A DNA stretch of 64,000 nucleotides from Marinobacter bohaiensis (GTDB lineage Bacteria; Pseudomonadota; Gammaproteobacteria; Pseudomonadales; Oleiphilaceae). Numbering within the stretch: position 1 is the first letter of the stretch; every line of letters begins with the position of its first letter. The stretch is taken from contig NZ_QGEH01000001.1 of NCBI RefSeq assembly GCF_003258515.1, forward strand, positions 1,054,001 through 1,118,000. Reading direction: 5' to 3'. Under the pieces are notes generated by a model. It saw only the letters and a program-made list of their open reading frames with translations. It ran no database searches and was not told where the DNA came from. This document shows positions 48,397-55,943 of the stretch, piece by piece. Both the position numbers and the translations under genes were made by a program.

Positions 48397-49293
48397 ATGC
48401 TCACCCAGATGTCTTCCCGGCAGTCCGGCATGGTACTCGCGGTACTGGCTGCCTTCGGTTTCTCTTTCAAGGCGATCTTCGTCAAGCTCGCCTACCAGGT
48501 GGCACCGGTCGATGCCGTAACCTTGTTGTCCCTGCGGATGATGTTCTCTTTGCCGTTGTTCGTTATCACGGGCTATGCCTACCTGCGCAGCGGGCCCGCT
48601 CTGGGCTGGAAGGATTGGCTGTTGCTGGTATTTCTCGGGCTAACCGGCTATTACGGTGCCTCGATACTGGATTTCATGGGGTTGCAGTACATTTCGGCGG
48701 GGCTGGAGCGGGTCATCCTGTTTACCTACCCGACCATCACGATTCTGATTGGCCTGCTGTTCCTCAACAAACCGCTCAGCGTCAGACTGAGCATTGCACT
48801 GGCGCTGTGTTATGCCGGCGTCAGCCTGGTTTTTATCAGCGACAGCCAGGTGTCAGAAGACAGTGCCGCCCCCTGGATTGGCGCGGGTTTGGTGTTTGCC
48901 TCAGCGGTGTCGTACGCGGCCTACAATGCTTTCTCGGAAGTTTCGATCAGCAAACTCGGAGCCGCCCGCTTCTCGGTTCTTGCCCTGGTGATTTCGATTG
49001 CCGCTGCGCAACTTCATTTCCTGGCGGTAAATCCGGTCAGCGACCTCGTTCAGCCGCTGCCGGTCTACGGGTATTGCGCCGCAATGGCTCTGTTCTCGAC
49101 GGTGATGCCGATATTCTTTCAGTCAGGAGCGATCCAGCGCATTGGCGCGGGGCGGACCGTGCTTGTGGGCATGCTCGGTCCGGTCATGACGATCTTTTTC
49201 AGCTGGCTGATACTGGCTGAGCCGATGACCTGGGCGCAGCTGTGTGGAACGGCCCTGGTGCTGGCCGGCATCTATCAGGTCCGGCGGTCGTGA
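48397..49293 (+). CDS. DMT/EamA-family transporter
   Basis: A 298-residue membrane protein with ten helices in two EamA repeats (about 10-140 and 155-295). Typical segments are FSFKAIFVKLAYQ, GLTGYYGASILDFMGLQYISAGLERVILFTYPT and GRTVLVGMLGPVMTIFFSWLILAEPMTWAQLCGTALVLAGI. EamA transporters move amino acids, nucleotides or other metabolites, usually outward; the substrate is unknown. The ribosome site is weak. Confidence 0.88.
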   Translation: MLTQMSSRQSGMVLAVLAAFGFSFKAIFVKLAYQVAPVDAVTLLSLRMMFSLPLFVITGYAYLRSGPALGWKDWLLLVFLGLTGYYGASILDFMGLQYISAGLERVILFTYPTITILIGLLFLNKPLSVRLSIALALCYAGVSLVFISDSQVSEDSAAPWIGAGLVFASAVSYAAYNAFSEVSISKLGAARFSVLALVISIAAAQLHFLAVNPVSDLVQPLPVYGYCAAMALFSTVMPIFFQSGAIQRIGAGRTVLVGMLGPVMTIFFSWLILAEPMTWAQLCGTALVLAGIYQVRRS

Positions 49294-49419: not shown

Positions 49420-50343
49420 TCAAAGACGGTTCAGATTGAGTGGTGCCAGCACCTGCCGCTCGTCGGCTCCGAAGGTGTCGGTGAACAGGTCGTCGATCTG
49501 GCGCTGCTTGTCCTCATCAGGCAGGGCGGCGTCCAGAATGAGGCGCTTCTGTTCGAGGTAGCGGGTTCGCCGTTGAGGCCAGTTGTCTACCTCGATCAGG
49601 TCCGTTTGCAGGGTATTGTTGAGGGCCTTGCTGCGTTTGAGTTTTTCCTCGAGGTTCAGATCCGGATTCGCCTGCAGTCGGCGTGCGGCCAGCATGTATT
49701 CAAAGTGGGCGTCGGATGCGCGGAATAGCTGATTGGCGAGCTCTTCGCCGAGCTGGCTTACGCGTAATTGCTGCAAGCCTCGGTACCTCTGTTCGGGGGA
49801 CGTCGGAGAGCGGCCATCCGCCCCGTTCGGGGCGGCCAGCGTTCGGCGCGCTTCGAGGAAACGGTAGTAGTCGCTGGCCAGCGTTGCGGTCTGTTCGCCG
49901 GCCGGGCCCGGCAGACCCGCCCGGATCAGCTCTGCCAGGTGGCCAAGCTGTTGCTCGGACAGCATCAGTGCTCCGTTATGGAAAATCCGTTCGAGAGCCT
50001 GACGGGCATTGTTATCGGGTACCAGATTACCGGTATCGTCCAGCCGCATGGCCTGAACAAGCTGGAAAACACCGTCCACAGTAAACGGGATGTCCGCAAC
50101 CGGTTCACCAGACATTCCGTCGTCCCGACGTCCTTTTGCGACGGGCAGCGGTTTCCCGGGTCTCGGTTGTGGTATGGGGGAGGCCTCATGCTGCTCGGCC
50201 GGAAGCTCGCTTCCGCTTGCGTGGGCAGATGGTTTGGGCGACGGCTCTGGCCAGAACCAGACGCTGCCAGCGACGAGCAGTAGCAGCGTGGTCCCCAGCA
50301 GAGCCGCCCGCCGCGGGTTTGGCCGCCCATCGCTGTGACTCAT
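49420..50343 (-). CDS. Lipase-specific foldase (Lif/LipB)-like chaperone
   Basis: A 307-residue membrane-anchored periplasmic protein. It has a short cytoplasmic N-terminus, one TM helix (about 13-31), a Pro/Ala-rich linker (32-78) and a helical region. The block VDGVFQLVQAMRLDDTGNLVPD (89-110) corresponds to the DG-x-L-..-D..GNLV start of lipase chaperone mini-domain 1. LGEELANQLFRASDAHFEYMLAARRL and NPDLNLEEKL resemble mini-domain 2. The family RxxFDxxLS motif is changed here to RQALERIFHNGALML. Lif proteins fold secreted class I lipases. None is nearby; a PETase-like hydrolase is. The ATG overlaps the AraC stop (ATGA), so it is translationally coupled to that regulator. Confidence 0.72.
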   Translation of the reverse strand: MSHSDGRPNPRRAALLGTTLLLLVAGSVWFWPEPSPKPSAHASGSELPAEQHEASPIPQPRPGKPLPVAKGRRDDGMSGEPVADIPFTVDGVFQLVQAMRLDDTGNLVPDNNARQALERIFHNGALMLSEQQLGHLAELIRAGLPGPAGEQTATLASDYYRFLEARRTLAAPNGADGRSPTSPEQRYRGLQQLRVSQLGEELANQLFRASDAHFEYMLAARRLQANPDLNLEEKLKRSKALNNTLQTDLIEVDNWPQRRTRYLEQKRLILDAALPDEDKQRQIDDLFTDTFGADERQVLAPLNLNRL

Positions 50344-51212
50344 ACCGCCACCCGGCTTCCCAGCAGCGGCGCCACCAGTTCCAGGGCGGACTCGTCCACC
50401 AGCGGATGCAGGTACGGTGGCTGCAGGAACATGGCGGACGGGCTCATGCCGTTCACGGTCCGGTAGCAGCGCGACAGGTGTGCCGAGCTGGAAAAACCGG
50501 CGTACATGGCGGCGTCGGTCATCGAGTGGCCGAGAGCCATGAGGATGGTGCTGATCGAGACCCGGTAGCGGATGCGGTACTGGGTGATGGTCAGGCCCAC
50601 CTGTTTCTTGAACAGCTTCTCCAGCCGCGAGCCGGACAGATGTACCGAGGCGGCCATTTCTGCCAGCGGGCACGGCGCGCCCAGGGATTCCCGGATGCGA
50701 TGAGCCACGCGCACGATGCGGGCGTCGAAGCCGGGCAAATCGGCCTGGCGCGGGGTGTTGGGCAGAAGACGCCGACGCAGGCGCTGGCGTGCGGCATTGG
50801 GGCTGATGTCCGGGGCGTTACGGATGGCGATCAGCTCGCGGATCAGCGCCTCCTCGTCCGGATGCTGGTAATAGATGCCGGGGGAGGCTTCCCGCATCAG
50901 CCGGCCCAGGGAGGCGTAGTCCCGTGAGAAGGGTGGCAGGAAGAAAATCGCCACCACCGCCTTGCGGGTGTCGAGGACCGAATGGTCGAGCCAGAGACCG
51001 GCCGGGGTGAGACAGCTGCGCGTGGTGATGGGGGCGCCGTCGGCGCCGCGTAAGGTGAAGGTGCCGTTCAGGCACAGGGTCAGTCGTTCCTGGGTGGTTC
51101 GGTGCGGTTCCTGGCGGGCGTAATGCGTGCCGAGAAACACACCCTCCCGGTTCCACAGGCACAGTTTCGGGGATCGCAGGCTAACGGGGGCAAGGTTGTT
51201 TTTGTTGTCCAT
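50340..51212 (-). CDS. AraC-family transcriptional regulator
   Basis: A 290-residue regulator. The N-terminal part (about 1-170) is a sensor region that reads like a cupin-type arm (LTLCLNGTFTLRGADG, LDTRKAVVAIFFLPPFS). The C-terminal pair of HTH motifs (about 180-265) is typical: CPLAEMAASVHLSGSRLEKLFKKQVG and MTDAAMYAGFSSSAHLSRCYRTVNGMSP. GGAG precedes the ATG at 51212. It lies 156 bp downstream of the PETase-like gene and overlaps the Lif-like gene by four bases, so it probably controls this locus. Inducer unknown. Confidence 0.88.
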   Translation of the reverse strand: MDNKNNLAPVSLRSPKLCLWNREGVFLGTHYARQEPHRTTQERLTLCLNGTFTLRGADGAPITTRSCLTPAGLWLDHSVLDTRKAVVAIFFLPPFSRDYASLGRLMREASPGIYYQHPDEEALIRELIAIRNAPDISPNAARQRLRRRLLPNTPRQADLPGFDARIVRVAHRIRESLGAPCPLAEMAASVHLSGSRLEKLFKKQVGLTITQYRIRYRVSISTILMALGHSMTDAAMYAGFSSSAHLSRCYRTVNGMSPSAMFLQPPYLHPLVDESALELVAPLLGSRVAV

Positions 51213-51271
51213 CGCGTGCTCCGGTTGGCGGAGTCCGTTGTCGGACCGTCCGTGTCCAGTGAACAGGTAGA

Positions 51272-51290
51272 CCGGGCCACCCGGGCCCGG
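51272..51290. terminator. Hairpin between PETase-like and AraC genes
   Basis: CCGGGCC (51272-51278) and GGCCCGG (51284-51290) form a perfect 7-bp stem with a 5-nt loop, about 80 bp after the hydrolase stop codon. No T-tract follows, so it may only attenuate or stabilise the transcript. Confidence 0.4.
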
Positions 51291-51368
51291 CCGTGGAAAC
51301 GTCCTACGTCTCTTCGCAGCATAGACGGGTTTTCAACCGCGGTTCGCGGCATCGACCGTTTTTGCCGG

Positions 51369-52247
51369 CTAGTACGGGCAAGTGCCGCGATATTCGGAGA
51401 TCCGATACTGGTCTTCATGGTCCGGGCCGCACAGGAACGGCGCGTAGCGGGTGTCCTGGTCGATGTGCAGTTTCATCCAGGAGACGCCGTACTTGCTGAG
51501 CACCGCGTTGTTGAGGTTGCCGCCGTTGGCGCAGAAGTGATCGCCGTTGTTGATCTCGAAGAAGGCCTTGGCGGTGGAGCCGGGAATGTCGTTGTAGAAA
51601 GGCGAGGCGTGGGAAGACACCGGCGCGACCACGTCGTTCTCGCAGGCGAAGATCAGCGTGGGTGTCTCGATCTCATCGAAATCGTTGAAGCTGGAGTTCC
51701 AGGGAGCCAGTGGGATGGCCGCGCTGAGTCGGTCGTCGGCGGCCAGCTGCAGCGTGCCGCCACCGCCCATGGACCAGCCCACGGCACCCAGGCGATTCGG
51801 ATCCACCATGCCGCTGATGGCGCTGAAGGAGGAATCGCTGCGGTCGATCAGGTAATCCAGCGCGGCGTCGATCTGGTCACGGCGCGATCCCGGCTGATCG
51901 TAGATGGTGATGGTGTCGATGGTCATGACCACAAAACCGTGCGACGCCAGTTGCTCGCCCCACCATTCGATGGACGATTCGTAGGACACGTAGCCCGGAA
52001 TCACGACGATGGCGCCCATCTGGCCGGTGGTGTCGGTCGGGTAGTGAATGGTGCCGCCGCCGAAGCCGCTGACCAGCGATGAAACGTTGACCGTGTCGAC
52101 GTTATAGGGTCCGCTGCTGGCCTCCAGGTAGGCTTCCGTGGGATCCGGCCCTCGGGTGAAGTCGGCGGATGCGGTGCTGACGTGCAGCGACGCCGCGAAC
52201 GGCAGCGCACAGACCAGCGCGTAGCTCAGCTTTTTCAATGTGTTCAT
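51369..52247 (-). CDS. PETase-like secreted polyester hydrolase (type II)
   Basis: A 292-residue secreted alpha/beta-hydrolase (dienelactone hydrolase/cutinase-like) with a Sec signal peptide (about 1-28, STASA). The mature start [14 protein letters not shown] and the core match Ideonella PETase along the whole length. The triad is Ser159 (GWSMGGGG), Asp205 (CENDVVAP) and His237. Oxyanion/aromatic residues are Tyr86 (PGYVSYESS), Met160 and Trp183 (APWNSS). Trp158 before the Ser is as in PETase, where cutinases have His. Phe238 replaces the PETase Ser238. Cys202-Cys239 and Cys273-Cys290 give both disulfides of type II PET hydrolases. It likely hydrolyses polyesters or cutin-like esters; activity on PET is inference. 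Downstream are AraC and Lif-like genes. Confidence 0.9.
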
Positions 52248-52563: not shown

Positions 52564-54597
52564 ATGGAACGCACGCACGTGTCTGGAAACGCAGAATGGC
52601 CGAAACGGACGCTTCTCGCCCTCGCCGTTTCGAGTCTGGCCCTGGGACTCTCCGGCTGCTGGCTGGACGATGATGACGACGACGATGATAGGGTGGGTGG
52701 CGGCGCGCCGGAATTCGCCGCGGCAACCGTCTACGTTGCCAGCAACAGTGGCGGCGGAGACACCAATGTCCGCGTTCGCGACGAAGACCTGGAACTGATG
52801 AACACCTACACCACCGGTGCCAATGAGGGCGTCCTGGTCAATGAGGCCGGCCACCTGGTGCAGGCCGGCGACCTGATGAGCACCGGCCGGCTGGTCACCG
52901 CCTGCAACGCCGAGACTCGCATGACGGGTGACGCCAGCTACGAAATCACCGGCGCCACCACCACCTTTTCCAGCCCCAAGGGCATTGCCCGAATTGCCAG
53001 TGAAGGCCTGATCGCGGTCGCGAACAACGGCGCCAGCACGGTGCTGCTGATGGGAGCGTCGGCCTCGGGCGATGTGGCCCCCGTGGCCACCGTCGCTCTC
53101 GCCGCCAACGCCTGGGACCTGGTCTATGACGACGCCTCCGACCGCCTGTTCGTAGCCCAGGTGGACGGCACCGTCGCGGTGTTCGACCGCTTTGCCCAGG
53201 ATCAGGGCGTGGGCGGCGCCAACCGCACCTTCTCCATCGTCGACGGCGACGGGGAACCCTCGGTCAACCTGCACGGCATTGACTACGATGCCGACGGTGA
53301 CCGCCTGGTGATCGGCGACGTCGGCGAGGCCGGCTCGGACGACGACGGTAAGCTGTACGTGGTCGACAGCGCCAGCACCGCCGACGGCCAGGTCATTGCC
53401 ACCACCACGATCAAGGGTGACCAGACGCGCCTGGGCAATCCTGTGGACCTGCAACTGACCGGCACCGACGTGCGCATTGCCGAGAAGGCCAACGGCGGCG
53501 GCTCGGTGCTGGTCTACCAGAACATCTTCAGTCGTTCGGGCGGCAATGTGGCCGCCGATCGGGTGCTGGATACGCCGGCCCCCGAGTCGATCGAAGTGGT
53601 GCTGGAGACGGACCCGGCGCCCGGCGTGACCGATATCCTCGACCCGGACACCGCCTACCAGTTGCTGACCACCAGCAACCCGGCGACCGGTTCGGCCACG
53701 TCCGGTCAGTTGTTCACCAATGAATCGACGCTCGCCGCGGCGCCGGCGCTGGCGTTCGACGCCGGACTCGACAGCGTAGAGAACGTGACCCTGGATCGCG
53801 ACGGCAACGCCTACATCACCTACGACGACGGCACCACCGCCAACAGCGGTATTGCGGTGATCGGCGCGATCGATGCGCGGGATAATTTCGACGGCAGCCG
53901 GGACCGGCTGATCACCGGCTCCAACACGCGGCTGATGTCGCCCAAGGGCATCGAACTGGCGGACGACCTGGGCCTGATGATCGTCGCGGAGCAGGCCGGT
54001 GCGGAAGTGCTGGTCTTCAGCGCCTGCGCCAGCGGAAACGCCACGCCGACGGTGGTCAGCACCGGTGGCGTCGCGCCCTGGGACAGCGACTACGACGCCG
54101 AGGGCGATGCGCTTTACGTGGCCCTGACCGATGGCACGGTAGCGGCCTACGACGACTTCTCCGCCGACCTTGGCGACGGCGGCCCGGACCGGCTCATCAC
54201 GCCGGCCATGGGTGGTACTCCGTTCGCCGCGCCGACCAACATCCACGGCATTCGCTACGTGGCGTCGGACGACGTGCTGATTATCAGCGATGTGGGGTCC
54301 GGTGCGGCGGCTGACGATGGCGCGTTGATGACGATTCCCGACGCATCGTCTTCCGACGGCACCACCAACGTAGGCAAGCGCATCGCCAACCCGGGTGATG
54401 GCTCCGACCTGACGGGGCTGGGCAATCCGGTGGACATCGCGTTCGACGGCGCGGACCTGTACGTGGCGGAGAAGATCAACGGCCAGATCCAGGTCTGGCG
54501 TGATTTCCTCAGCGACGCCGCCCTGACCGGCAATGTGGCGCCGAGCGACAGCGTGGCGGCCACGGCACCGGAGTCGATCGTGCTGAAGCCGGAATAG
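52564..54597 (+). CDS. Beta-propeller-like lipoprotein with duplicated repeat
   Basis: A 677-residue lipoprotein with lipobox LSGC (Cys32), followed directly by a tract of eight Asp (35-42). The body is two homologous halves of about 230 residues. Each opens SPKGI and continues through a DGTVA.(F/Y)D.F segment, then HGI.Y, (I)(G/S)DVG, DDG.L, GNPVD and AEK.NG, and closes with APESI. These short repeated strand patterns suggest six- to eight-bladed propellers (SMP-30/NHL-like). The function is unknown; it may be surface exposed. AAGGTGAC precedes the ATG. It is divergent from the PETase-like gene and ends at a strong bidirectional terminator. Confidence 0.78.
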   Translation: MERTHVSGNAEWPKRTLLALAVSSLALGLSGCWLDDDDDDDDRVGGGAPEFAAATVYVASNSGGGDTNVRVRDEDLELMNTYTTGANEGVLVNEAGHLVQAGDLMSTGRLVTACNAETRMTGDASYEITGATTTFSSPKGIARIASEGLIAVANNGASTVLLMGASASGDVAPVATVALAANAWDLVYDDASDRLFVAQVDGTVAVFDRFAQDQGVGGANRTFSIVDGDGEPSVNLHGIDYDADGDRLVIGDVGEAGSDDDGKLYVVDSASTADGQVIATTTIKGDQTRLGNPVDLQLTGTDVRIAEKANGGGSVLVYQNIFSRSGGNVAADRVLDTPAPESIEVVLETDPAPGVTDILDPDTAYQLLTTSNPATGSATSGQLFTNESTLAAAPALAFDAGLDSVENVTLDRDGNAYITYDDGTTANSGIAVIGAIDARDNFDGSRDRLITGSNTRLMSPKGIELADDLGLMIVAEQAGAEVLVFSACASGNATPTVVSTGGVAPWDSDYDAEGDALYVALTDGTVAAYDDFSADLGDGGPDRLITPAMGGTPFAAPTNIHGIRYVASDDVLIISDVGSGAAADDGALMTIPDASSSDGTTNVGKRIANPGDGSDLTGLGNPVDIAFDGADLYVAEKINGQIQVWRDFLSDAALTGNVAPSDSVAATAPESIVLKPE

Positions 54598-54666: not shown

Positions 54667-55386
54667 CTACAGCGCCACGGCCCGGCCGATGTACTCGATC
54701 GGCCCGGTGGGACGACCGATCGGCGAACCGCTGGCGTCTTCCAGGGTGATCTCGAACAGCTGGTTGGGCTGCAGCGGTGGCAGGTCGTTCAGGTTGATGC
54801 GCAGCGGCTGGCCGGGTTGCACCAGGCCCAGCGATACCGGGCCGCTCCAGTCGTCGGCCTTGGTCCAGAACTCCAGGGCCTTGCCCTGCGGCACGTCGAA
54901 ATTGCCCAGTGCGGTCAGGGTCAGTGTCTGGCGATTGCTGGCTTCCACCACCCAGCCTGGCGCGTGACCATCCGGTGTGGCGAGCACCACCATGTAGTTG
55001 GGCTGCGGTTGCTGGAAAATCAGCCCGATGCCCATGAGCAGCGCCAGCGCGAAGCCGGCTGCCGTGAGGCCACGCCACAGGGCCAGGCTGTGCCACCAGC
55101 CATCCCGCTTCCGCCGTGGTGTGTGCAGTGGAGCCTGTGGTGACGGTGCCGGATCGCTGGCAATGCTGTCGCTGATGCGTTGCCAGACGCTGTCGGGGAC
55201 CGGCATCGGGTCCACAGTGTCGCACAGCGGCACCAGACGGTTTTCCCAGTACGCTACCCAGCCTGCCAGCTCCTCATCGGTCTTCAGGCGTTCGATGACC
55301 TCTCGGCGCTCCGCTTCGGGCAGGGTGCCCAGGACGTACTCGCCGGCCAGCTCGAACAGCGGCTCCTGATCGCTGTGATCGGTCAT
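54667..55386 (-). CDS. Anti-sigma factor, RskA/SigK-type
   Basis: A 239-residue single-pass membrane protein. The cytoplasmic N-terminus (LFELAGEYVLGTLPEAERREVIERLKTDEELAGWVAYWENRL) is the conserved anti-sigma zinc-finger-like helical region. TM is about 95-117 (LWRGLTAAGFALALLMGIG), followed by an RskA periplasmic domain (PF10099: VVEASNRQTLTLTALGNFDVPQGKALEFWTK). It sequesters the ECF sigma factor encoded just upstream. The ATG at 55386 overlaps the sigma stop (ATGA) and has AAGGAG 8 nt upstream, so translation is coupled. The released signal is unknown. Confidence 0.88.
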   Translation of the reverse strand: MTDHSDQEPLFELAGEYVLGTLPEAERREVIERLKTDEELAGWVAYWENRLVPLCDTVDPMPVPDSVWQRISDSIASDPAPSPQAPLHTPRRKRDGWWHSLALWRGLTAAGFALALLMGIGLIFQQPQPNYMVVLATPDGHAPGWVVEASNRQTLTLTALGNFDVPQGKALEFWTKADDWSGPVSLGLVQPGQPLRINLNDLPPLQPNQLFEITLEDASGSPIGRPTGPIEYIGRAVAL

Positions 55387-55943
55387 GCGAGGCACTCCTT
55401 CAGCGCCACAAGACTGCGCTTGATCCAGGACTTCACGCTGCCCAGTGGGGCGCCCAGCAGGTCGCTGATCTCACTCTGGCTGTAGCCGTTGACGTAGGCG
55501 TGGTAGAGGCAGGTGCGACGCTCCGGCTCCAGCGCCATGATGCAGTCATGCACCCGATCGTTCTGCATGCCCCAGTGGCTGGTGTTGACGCGCTCGCACC
55601 ACTGGCTGTCGCTGACGTCCGGCAGCTCGTCGGGGGATTGGTCCCGGGGTTCGCGGCGGCGTGAAAACCGGATGGCGTCGAGCGCCAAATGGCGGGCGAT
55701 GGAATAGATCCAGCCGCGACCGGTACCGCGGGACGGATCAAAGGTGTGGGCTTTCTGCCAGATGCGCAGGAACAGGTCGTGGATCAGATCTTCGGCGGCG
55801 GCTCGATCCCGGACGATGTTGTAGATCACCCCCATCAGGCGGCTGGCTTCTTCCCGGTAAAGCGATCGCAGGGCCGTCTGGTTGCGGGCGGCGCAATCGC
55901 GCAAACAGGTCTCGTAGTCGAATGCATGGTTATCTTCTGGCAC
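55383..55943 (-). CDS. ECF sigma-70 factor (SigK-type)
   Basis: A 186-residue ECF sigma factor. Region 2 (about 22-90) includes RDRAAAEDLIHDLFLRIWQKAHTFD, and region 4 (about 128-182) contains the HTH VNGYSQSEISDLLGAPLGSVKSWIKRSLVALK. Its gene precedes the anti-sigma gene with a 4-base overlap. ECF factors with RskA-type partners respond to envelope, redox or nutrient signals. It might control neighbours such as the lipoprotein or the monooxygenase cluster, but that is inference. Confidence 0.9.
   Translation of the reverse strand: MPEDNHAFDYETCLRDCAARNQTALRSLYREEASRLMGVIYNIVRDRAAAEDLIHDLFLRIWQKAHTFDPSRGTGRGWIYSIARHLALDAIRFSRRREPRDQSPDELPDVSDSQWCERVNTSHWGMQNDRVHDCIMALEPERRTCLYHAYVNGYSQSEISDLLGAPLGSVKSWIKRSLVALKECLA

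Follow-up and report, generated by a model that had tools for sequence, protein, structure and literature searches.

A PET-hydrolase-like enzyme of Marinobacter bohaiensis and its Lif-like neighbour: half of a dispersed gene set that may mature secreted polyester hydrolases

The type II poly(ethylene terephthalate) (PET) hydrolases PE-H, PET5, Ple628 and Ple629 are treated as lone enzymes in the papers searched, and no partner is mentioned in their accessible text. The classical lipase foldases (Lif, LipB, LipH) of family I.1 and I.2 lipases have an N-terminal membrane anchor, a helical clamp fold and the Pfam domain Lipase_chap, and are encoded next to a secreted alpha/beta hydrolase. Both kinds meet in a stretch of 64,000 nucleotides of Marinobacter bohaiensis (contig NZ_QGEH01000001.1, positions 1,054,001 to 1,118,000), hereafter called the window. 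On its minus strand, an enzyme with the family, residues and cysteines of the type II PET hydrolases is followed by an AraC-family regulator and then by a Lif-like protein, LifA. Another contig encodes a further protein of the Lif type, LifB, together with a paralogue of the apolipoprotein N-acyltransferase Lnt, called Lnt2. LifA, LifB and Lnt2 are read here, with a probability of about 0.6, as a dedicated periplasmic maturation or escort system for secreted polyester hydrolases, the window holding one half of a dispersed but conserved set.

LifA shares with the classical foldases all the features named above. However, its neighbour is a hydrolase of the PETase/cutinase type, the foldase motif RxxFDY is replaced, and the set also contains LifB, apparently without the last mini-domain, and Lnt2. 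CpaB, a chaperone of the type II secretion system (T2SS), resembles LifA in its single N-terminal anchor, in its gene lying beside that of the secreted client and in being needed for T2SS export, but its periplasmic domain is of the SRPBCC type (DELTA-BLAST) and its client is a protease (PMC4713064, accessible part). A lipase chaperone and the T2SS are also implicated in polyester breakdown in Burkholderia vietnamiensis, where lip1/lipO serve the extracellular degradation of medium-chain-length polyhydroxyalkanoate; there, the annotated pair is a triacylglycerol lipase and a lipase secretion chaperone, and the accessible part of the paper does not mention a second Lif or an Lnt (PMC13101487). 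Within the open-access literature (no bioRxiv, few subscription journals), no publication was found that ties a PETase to a lipase chaperone or to an apolipoprotein N-acyltransferase, and the word "chaperone" is absent from the accessible main texts of PMC9350882, PMC7666164, PMC12224614 and PMC12886402. An earlier sequence-only reading of the window had placed a Lif partner outside the usual picture of PETases. Pairs of a Lif and its client, type II PETases and Lnt are each of a known kind; their combination and the occurrence of two Lif-like groups appear to be new.

The window hydrolase matches the Pfam family PETase (PF12740) with 377.6 bits (E 4e-113; cut-off 28). Its nearest structures in the PDB are LipIAF5-2 (7ec8) and Ple628 (7vmd), followed further down by 8otu, 8ais, 8ait, Ple629 and the "polyester hydrolase" 6sbn, which we take to be PE-H. 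The sequence-only reading had proposed a type II PET hydrolase at this position, and both the family and the structural relatives, which are PET hydrolases, bear this out. The residues that it had named are also found: the nucleophile elbow (W158, S159, M160) in a GWSMG context, the Ser-Asp-His triad (S159, D205, H237), W183 and Y86. Of its two disulfide pairs, the four cysteines are present and, like the triad, invariant in 13 aligned PETases; the pairing itself, C202 with C239 and C273 with C290, is likely from homology. A large aromatic residue after the catalytic His marks an enzyme as not belonging to type IIb (PMC7031157, accessible part), and since F238 follows H237, the window hydrolase is not of this subtype, a call made from F238, the IIa residue covered by the comparison. 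The NCBIfam equivalog for bis(2-hydroxyethyl) terephthalate hydrolase, NF051441, gives 321.1 bits, below its cut-off of 520. The enzyme is a predicted polyester hydrolase.

The genome of M. bohaiensis contains a second module (locus L003), in the same order of hydrolase, AraC and Lif-like gene, which is faced by the LifB-Lnt2 pair on the plus strand (Table 1). The best PDB relatives of its hydrolase are 9w68 ("PETase"), 9k0h, 9hl5 and 2fx5 ("lipase"), with E values from 1e-86 to 3e-80; 2fx5 is presumably the Pseudomonas mendocina cutinase/lipase. The genome has two matches to Lipase_chap (PF03280), both above the cut-off and both LifA proteins. A GspD that exceeds the cut-off for that family is also encoded. 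Within the genus, a related hydrolase occurs in three of six genomes (G000, G001, G004), each time with a Lif-like gene nearby; G001 carries the second module and G004 carries both. In M. bohaiensis and in G004, each of the two hydrolase modules has its own LifA, and this arrangement suggests one LifA per hydrolase module together with a shared LifB-Lnt2 pair. Between these two genomes, identity amounts to 84.1% for the PETase, 76.5% for the AraC protein, which holds the same position, and 40.5% for LifA. The corresponding values for the second set are 83.3% (hydrolase), 70.7% (AraC), 46.3% (LifA2), 42.7% (LifB) and 62.0% (Lnt2).

Table 1. Features of the window and of the second module of M. 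bohaiensis (L003, contig 3).
Feature	Location	Position	Strand	Remarks
Type II PET-hydrolase-like enzyme, 292 aa	Window	51369-52247	-	PF12740; signal-peptide-like N-terminus by eye; triad S159/D205/H237; four conserved Cys
AraC-family regulator (HTH_18)	Window	50340-51212	-	HTH_18 E 3.5e-15, HTH_AraC
LifA, Lif-like, 307 aa	Window	49420-50343	-	Lipase_chap; predicted N-terminal membrane helix; start from ATGA overlap
ATGA overlap, AraC stop/LifA start	Window	50340-50343	-	4-base overlap of reading frames likewise in L081 and L121
EamA transporter	Window	48397-49293	+	
Acidic protein, lipoprotein-like start	Window	52564-54597	+	Weak NHL match; divergent neighbour
RskA-type anti-sigma factor	Window	54667-55395	-	
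ECF-like (extracytoplasmic function) sigma factor	Window	55383-55943	-	
Hydrolase, cutinase-like	L003	10375-11187	-	PF12740, 47.1 bits
AraC with Arabinose_bd domain, other type	L003	9170-10216	-	
LifA2	L003	8336-9160	-	PF03280
LifB, short reading frame	L003	6293-6820	+	Match to custom Lif profile, not to Pfam
Lnt2, apolipoprotein N-acyltransferase paralogue	L003	6817-8394	+	Overlaps LifB by 4 bases

The linkage was followed in 79 named PETase loci, the best of 306 stretches confirmed in a scan with a PETase alignment (80 kept; a genome can supply more than one locus, and part of the contigs are short). With author-set cut-offs of 100 bits for LifA, 40 for LifB and 300 for Lnt2, the flanks contain LifA in 20 loci, LifB in 19 and all three genes in 18. 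The carriers of LifA are Oleispira (1), Bermanella (2), Shewanella (4), Arenicella (3), an Ectothiorhodospiraceae bacterium (1), Glaciecola, Aliiglaciecola and other Alteromonadaceae (4) and records named to a higher rank (5). In Aestuariicella (L135), Lnt2 alone lies in the flank; it is the closest gene of a set that has its LifA about 6.6 kb from the PETase (L230). Co-directional, divergent and convergent layouts all occur: the order PETase-LifA-LifB-Lnt2 on one strand, within which Oleispira and one Bermanella have an additional AraC gene, or a PETase divergent from LifA-LifB-Lnt2 (L092, L093, L101/L132, L151). This variety points to function rather than to an inherited neighbourhood, and the grouping in the window is more than chance because it recurs in other genomes. 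That the neighbourhood is a coincidence, or shared ancestry without functional meaning, is highly improbable: 58 of the 79 loci show no LifA, LifB or Lnt2 in their flanks, but the set is found in several families with varied layouts, and many PETase genomes have an Lnt2 even where it is unlinked.

The set used as unbiased comes from the order, in which 12 of 390 genomes have a PF12740 match above 350 bits, a threshold chosen once it was seen that no score falls between 356 and 292 bits. In seven of the 12 (G000, G071, G103, G131, G253, G336, G353), the distance from LifA to the PETase is at most about 7 kb, and in G178 and G238 LifA is found elsewhere in the genome; the PETase regions of G066, G275 and G364, which match named Pseudomonas/Stutzerimonas loci, are without LifA. 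The 40 regions of the order were hand-picked, some for PETase and Lif matches listed close together, and only the 12 strong genomes are counted. The hydrolase-AraC-Lif module proposed by the sequence-only reading thereby keeps its Lif-like linkage (20 of 79 loci; 7 of 12 genomes) but was incomplete, as AraC is optional and present in some loci only, while the parts that recur are LifA, LifB and the Lnt paralogue. A lack of conserved linkage among homologues had been set beforehand as its refutation; the homologues do show linkage, and the refutation fails.

Adjacent PETase open reading frames (ORFs) were also seen in Marinobacter and Pseudomonas-group genomes (L126, L145, L147, L148, L152, L159), three of them consecutive in L148. 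Two PETase ORFs of Burkholderiales (L186, 5440-6804; L197, 5401-6804) are extended at the N-terminus by a long stretch that may be an additional domain.

LifB is a shorter Lif-like protein in which the second mini-domain is apparently missing. Lnt2, 525 to 580 aa long in 26 aligned copies, matches TIGR00546 in all 26 (E <= 0.001) and keeps the triad E270, K332 and C387 in all of them. The M. bohaiensis copy carries, like Lnt, the LNT_N and carbon-nitrogen hydrolase domains, finds a solved Lnt at E 1e-14 and reaches 196.4 bits with TIGR00546 (cut-off 132.9). Unlike Lnt, it is a second, lower-scoring copy coupled to LifB: the genome holds another Lnt with a better LNT_N score (131.8 vs. 63.4 bits), so that Lnt2 is an extra copy there.

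At E <= 1e-60, Lnt2 occurs in 11 of the 390 genomes of the order, and the 12 genomes with a strong PETase match account for nine of these (hypergeometric P 2e-14, genomes treated as independent and that of M. bohaiensis included). The other two are G363, with the second hydrolase type, LifB, Lnt2 and a LifA elsewhere, and G278, where Lnt2 lies on a 3.3-kb contig. The profile used (A5) drew on loci close to PETase or Lif genes, and 10 of these loci came from the 390 genomes; of the 380 others, only G278 has Lnt2. Among 38 named PETase genomes, author-picked from the 79 loci (39 handles), Lnt2 is present in 30 (518 bits or more, the next match down in any of them having 152) and a LifA-type protein (E < 1e-50) in 17, all with Lnt2. 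Eleven of the 38 supplied members of the profile; in the other 27, Lnt2 occurs in 19, of which 12 are of the Halopseudomonas group, including H. aestusnigri VGXO14, the source of PE-H. LifB and Lnt2 are found together away from the PETase in L003, L230-L232, L253, L255 and L256, and in three Marinobacter genomes the pair is close to a LifA-like ORF, on a contig that does not carry the PETase.

Where Lnt2 stands alone in the Halopseudomonas group (L254, L257-L264, L266-L268), it was seen by eye beside an acyltransferase-like and/or FAD-protein-like gene in five of six inspected loci. In Alkalilimnicola ehrlichii (L251, 6104-8641), a PETase-related hydrolase like the second one of M. bohaiensis is directly followed by Lnt2, and no Lif-like gene is found in this stretch; a LifB-Lnt2 pair lies on another contig (L252).

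The window LifA matches Lipase_chap with 47.1 bits (E 3.6e-12; cut-off 25.7), and all 34 LifA proteins match this family (E <= 0.01). The two NCBIfam equivalogs for lipase secretion chaperones are far from reached (57.8 bits vs. a cut-off of 285; 32 vs. 542), and by sequence alone the match to a solved lipase chaperone is weak (phmmer against the PDB, E 0.005). By prediction, the protein has the Lif fold and keeps the Lif architecture; it is a putative steric chaperone of the hydrolase. A search of the genome contigs with LifA as a single sequence gave 29 pattern matches with no relative confirmed, which fast divergence of LifA probably explains; a search with the PETase alignment succeeded instead. 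The two aromatic residues of RxxFDY, on which lipase activation depends (PMC7046727), are gone in 34 of 34 LifA, where the motif is mostly LxxL(D/N)(E/Q/A/R); in the window it reads RxxLER, at the position in mini-domain 1. At the Tyr position, 41 of the 43 other Lifs from the order have an aromatic residue, as against none of the 34 LifA.

A role of the Lif-like gene for an ordinary family I lipase encoded at another site, with joint induction as the sole reason for its place beside the PETase, is hardly likely. A hydrolase with a GHSHGG-type motif is indeed a frequent neighbour of the other Lifs of the order (21 of 43, in the short flanking DNA examined). However, LifA stands apart from 42 of the 43 in the tree and lacks their motif, and the only PF03280 matches of the M. 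bohaiensis genome are the two LifA, both beside polyester-hydrolase-like genes, although a family I lipase itself was not searched for there. The window LifA adjoins none, its neighbours being the AraC gene, the PETase-type hydrolase and the EamA transporter. The trees are quick ones with SH-aLRT (approximate likelihood-ratio) support only, and the 43 include one duplicated protein. The Lif of L122 was not counted as a LifA, as it groups with the other Lifs. The pairs of L084-L088 ("PETdiv"), first seeded into the Lif profile, were also set aside, since they form a group of their own; found in two other families of the order, each joins, in divergent orientation, a more distant hydrolase of the PETase kind to a Lif-like protein, and the region has no Lnt2.

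In the mechanism proposed, Sec would export the PETase to the periplasm, where LifA, tethered to the inner membrane by its N-terminal helix, would clamp the hydrolase in the manner of Lif and escort it to the type II secretion machinery. Such binding and hand-off are suggested by analogy with Lif and CpaB (PMC4713064, accessible part). Each LifA would belong to its own hydrolase module, and LifB and Lnt2, a polytopic protein with an intact E-K-C triad, would form a coupled pair serving more than one hydrolase-LifA module per cell. We infer a partnership of LifA with LifB and the sharing of LifB-Lnt2. The pair may act on the same complex; that Lnt2 would acylate the hydrolase or its partner is a guess, as is its putative activity on lipoproteins.

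Several observations weigh against a maturation system of this kind. An identity of 40.5% for LifA, where the PETases of the same two genomes share 84.1%, is odd for a strict partner, and the classical Lif mechanism is not simply transferable because LifA differs at the motif needed for lipase activation. LifB has no Lipase_chap match (E <= 0.01) in 10 of 28 cases, that of M. bohaiensis included. To the 58 loci without linked genes are added eight of the 38 named genomes that lack both a LifA-type protein and Lnt2, and the 12 Halopseudomonas-group genomes, with no LifA or LifB in the 14 kb examined at Lnt2 and no LifA at E < 1e-50 genome-wide. G048 carries hydrolase 2, AraC and LifA (L089) without Lnt2. 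Two PETase ORFs lie beside one LifA in L093 and L151. PE-H is active from E. coli (PMC7031157, accessible part), and a chaperone is not mentioned in the accessible main texts of PMC7031157 and PMC5881046. The genomes of L093 and L151 carry a further LifA-like gene elsewhere (L233, L265), which in L233 directly follows a PETase-related hydrolase.

The case of PET5 is the most direct, as its gene lies in a PETase-AraC-LifA-LifB-Lnt2 operon of Oleispira (L095). Genome G353 is presumably that of Oleispira antarctica RB-8, which the match of the PET5 primers supports. The gene-specific parts of these primers, printed in the accessible part of PMC5881046, match the L095 PETase gene exactly, the forward one from codon 2; the forward primer including its ATG has no match. 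The genes of PET2, PET5, PET6 and PET12 were each cloned on their own in E. coli, and active enzymes are reported from them (same source). The result speaks for polyester activity in an enzyme of such an operon and, also weighing against the proposed system, shows that it can be active without its partners in that host. The second refutation set for the sequence-only reading, normal folding without the Lif-like protein, is in part borne out. The dedicated helper of that reading remains likely, but a strict folding dependence is unlikely for all members. PDB entry 8ait had been considered as the Oleispira enzyme and was dropped, the L095 score being far below a self-match.

A tenable, though rather unlikely, alternative is that LifA, LifB and Lnt2 form a complex for envelope acylation or lipid handling, in which the Lif-like proteins serve as scaffolds rather than in folding and the PETase-like enzyme is one of the enzymes at work, with an endogenous ester or lipid as its substrate. 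The lost motif aromatics, the activity of PET5 and PE-H from E. coli, the tight coupling of LifB and Lnt2 also away from the PETase and the Lif-free hydrolase-Lnt2 stretch of L251 are in its favor. On the other side, the hydrolases have signal-peptide-like N-termini and the active site of secreted polyester hydrolases, LifA keeps the Lif architecture, and each hydrolase module of M. bohaiensis and G004 has its own LifA. Less likely still, and decidedly speculative, is that, in marine Gammaproteobacteria, two Lif clamps (LifA and LifB) present the exported enzyme to Lnt2, which would fatty-acylate the enzyme or a bound partner without a lipobox Cys and so anchor or activate it at the hydrophobic surface of the polymer; the lone PETases that are well studied would stem from lineages in which the complex was lost wholly or in part, or have been taken out of it. 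A simple lipobox pattern matches none of 13 PETases. Many Lif-linked PETases show glycine-rich stretches after the signal-peptide-like region (N-termini of L180-L199). Such a stretch was rejected as the Lnt2 acylation site: it is absent in the Oleispira and Ketobacter relatives and does not discriminate, because unlinked Marinobacter PETases have it too.

Regarding the history of the maturation system, linked PETases occur to either side of the root as drawn, which is not fixed, in a PETase tree of 58 rows. Seven Pseudomonas/Stutzerimonas rows without the set and 13 Halopseudomonas-group rows with Lnt2 only (one from Alkalilimnicola) form two separate nested groups, and Vibrio ruber and Noviherbaspirillum stand singly without the set. 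The four states require nine changes on the tree, vs. a shuffled mean of 27.6, ten loci being labelled "full" from the locus alone. The simplest reading is a loss of the set in these lineages, one of which is the source of PE-H, with transfer possible. The system is best read as absent in the Pseudomonas-type genomes examined and reduced to Lnt2 in those of the Halopseudomonas type.

Around the window genes, the AraC protein shows no N-terminal sensor family in Pfam (E <= 0.01). The longest ORF of LifA begins at 50673; the ATG at 50343, overlapping the TGA stop of AraC (50342-50340), gives the 307-aa protein. The sequence-only reading had described both genes downstream of the hydrolase with an ATGA overlap, and all of this is seen. 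No indication of module membership was seen for the EamA transporter or for the acidic NHL-like protein, near which the sigma and anti-sigma factor genes lie.

PET hydrolases are intensively engineered, while little is known of their natural setting; the partner set gives a hint at native folding, secretion or anchoring. Its members are candidate genes for improved enzyme secretion, and deleting them makes the natural role of the hydrolases testable. The set also raises the question of the acylation target of a second Lnt. If the maturation reading is true, the Lif family of steric chaperones would be extended to a new class of clients with an altered recognition motif.

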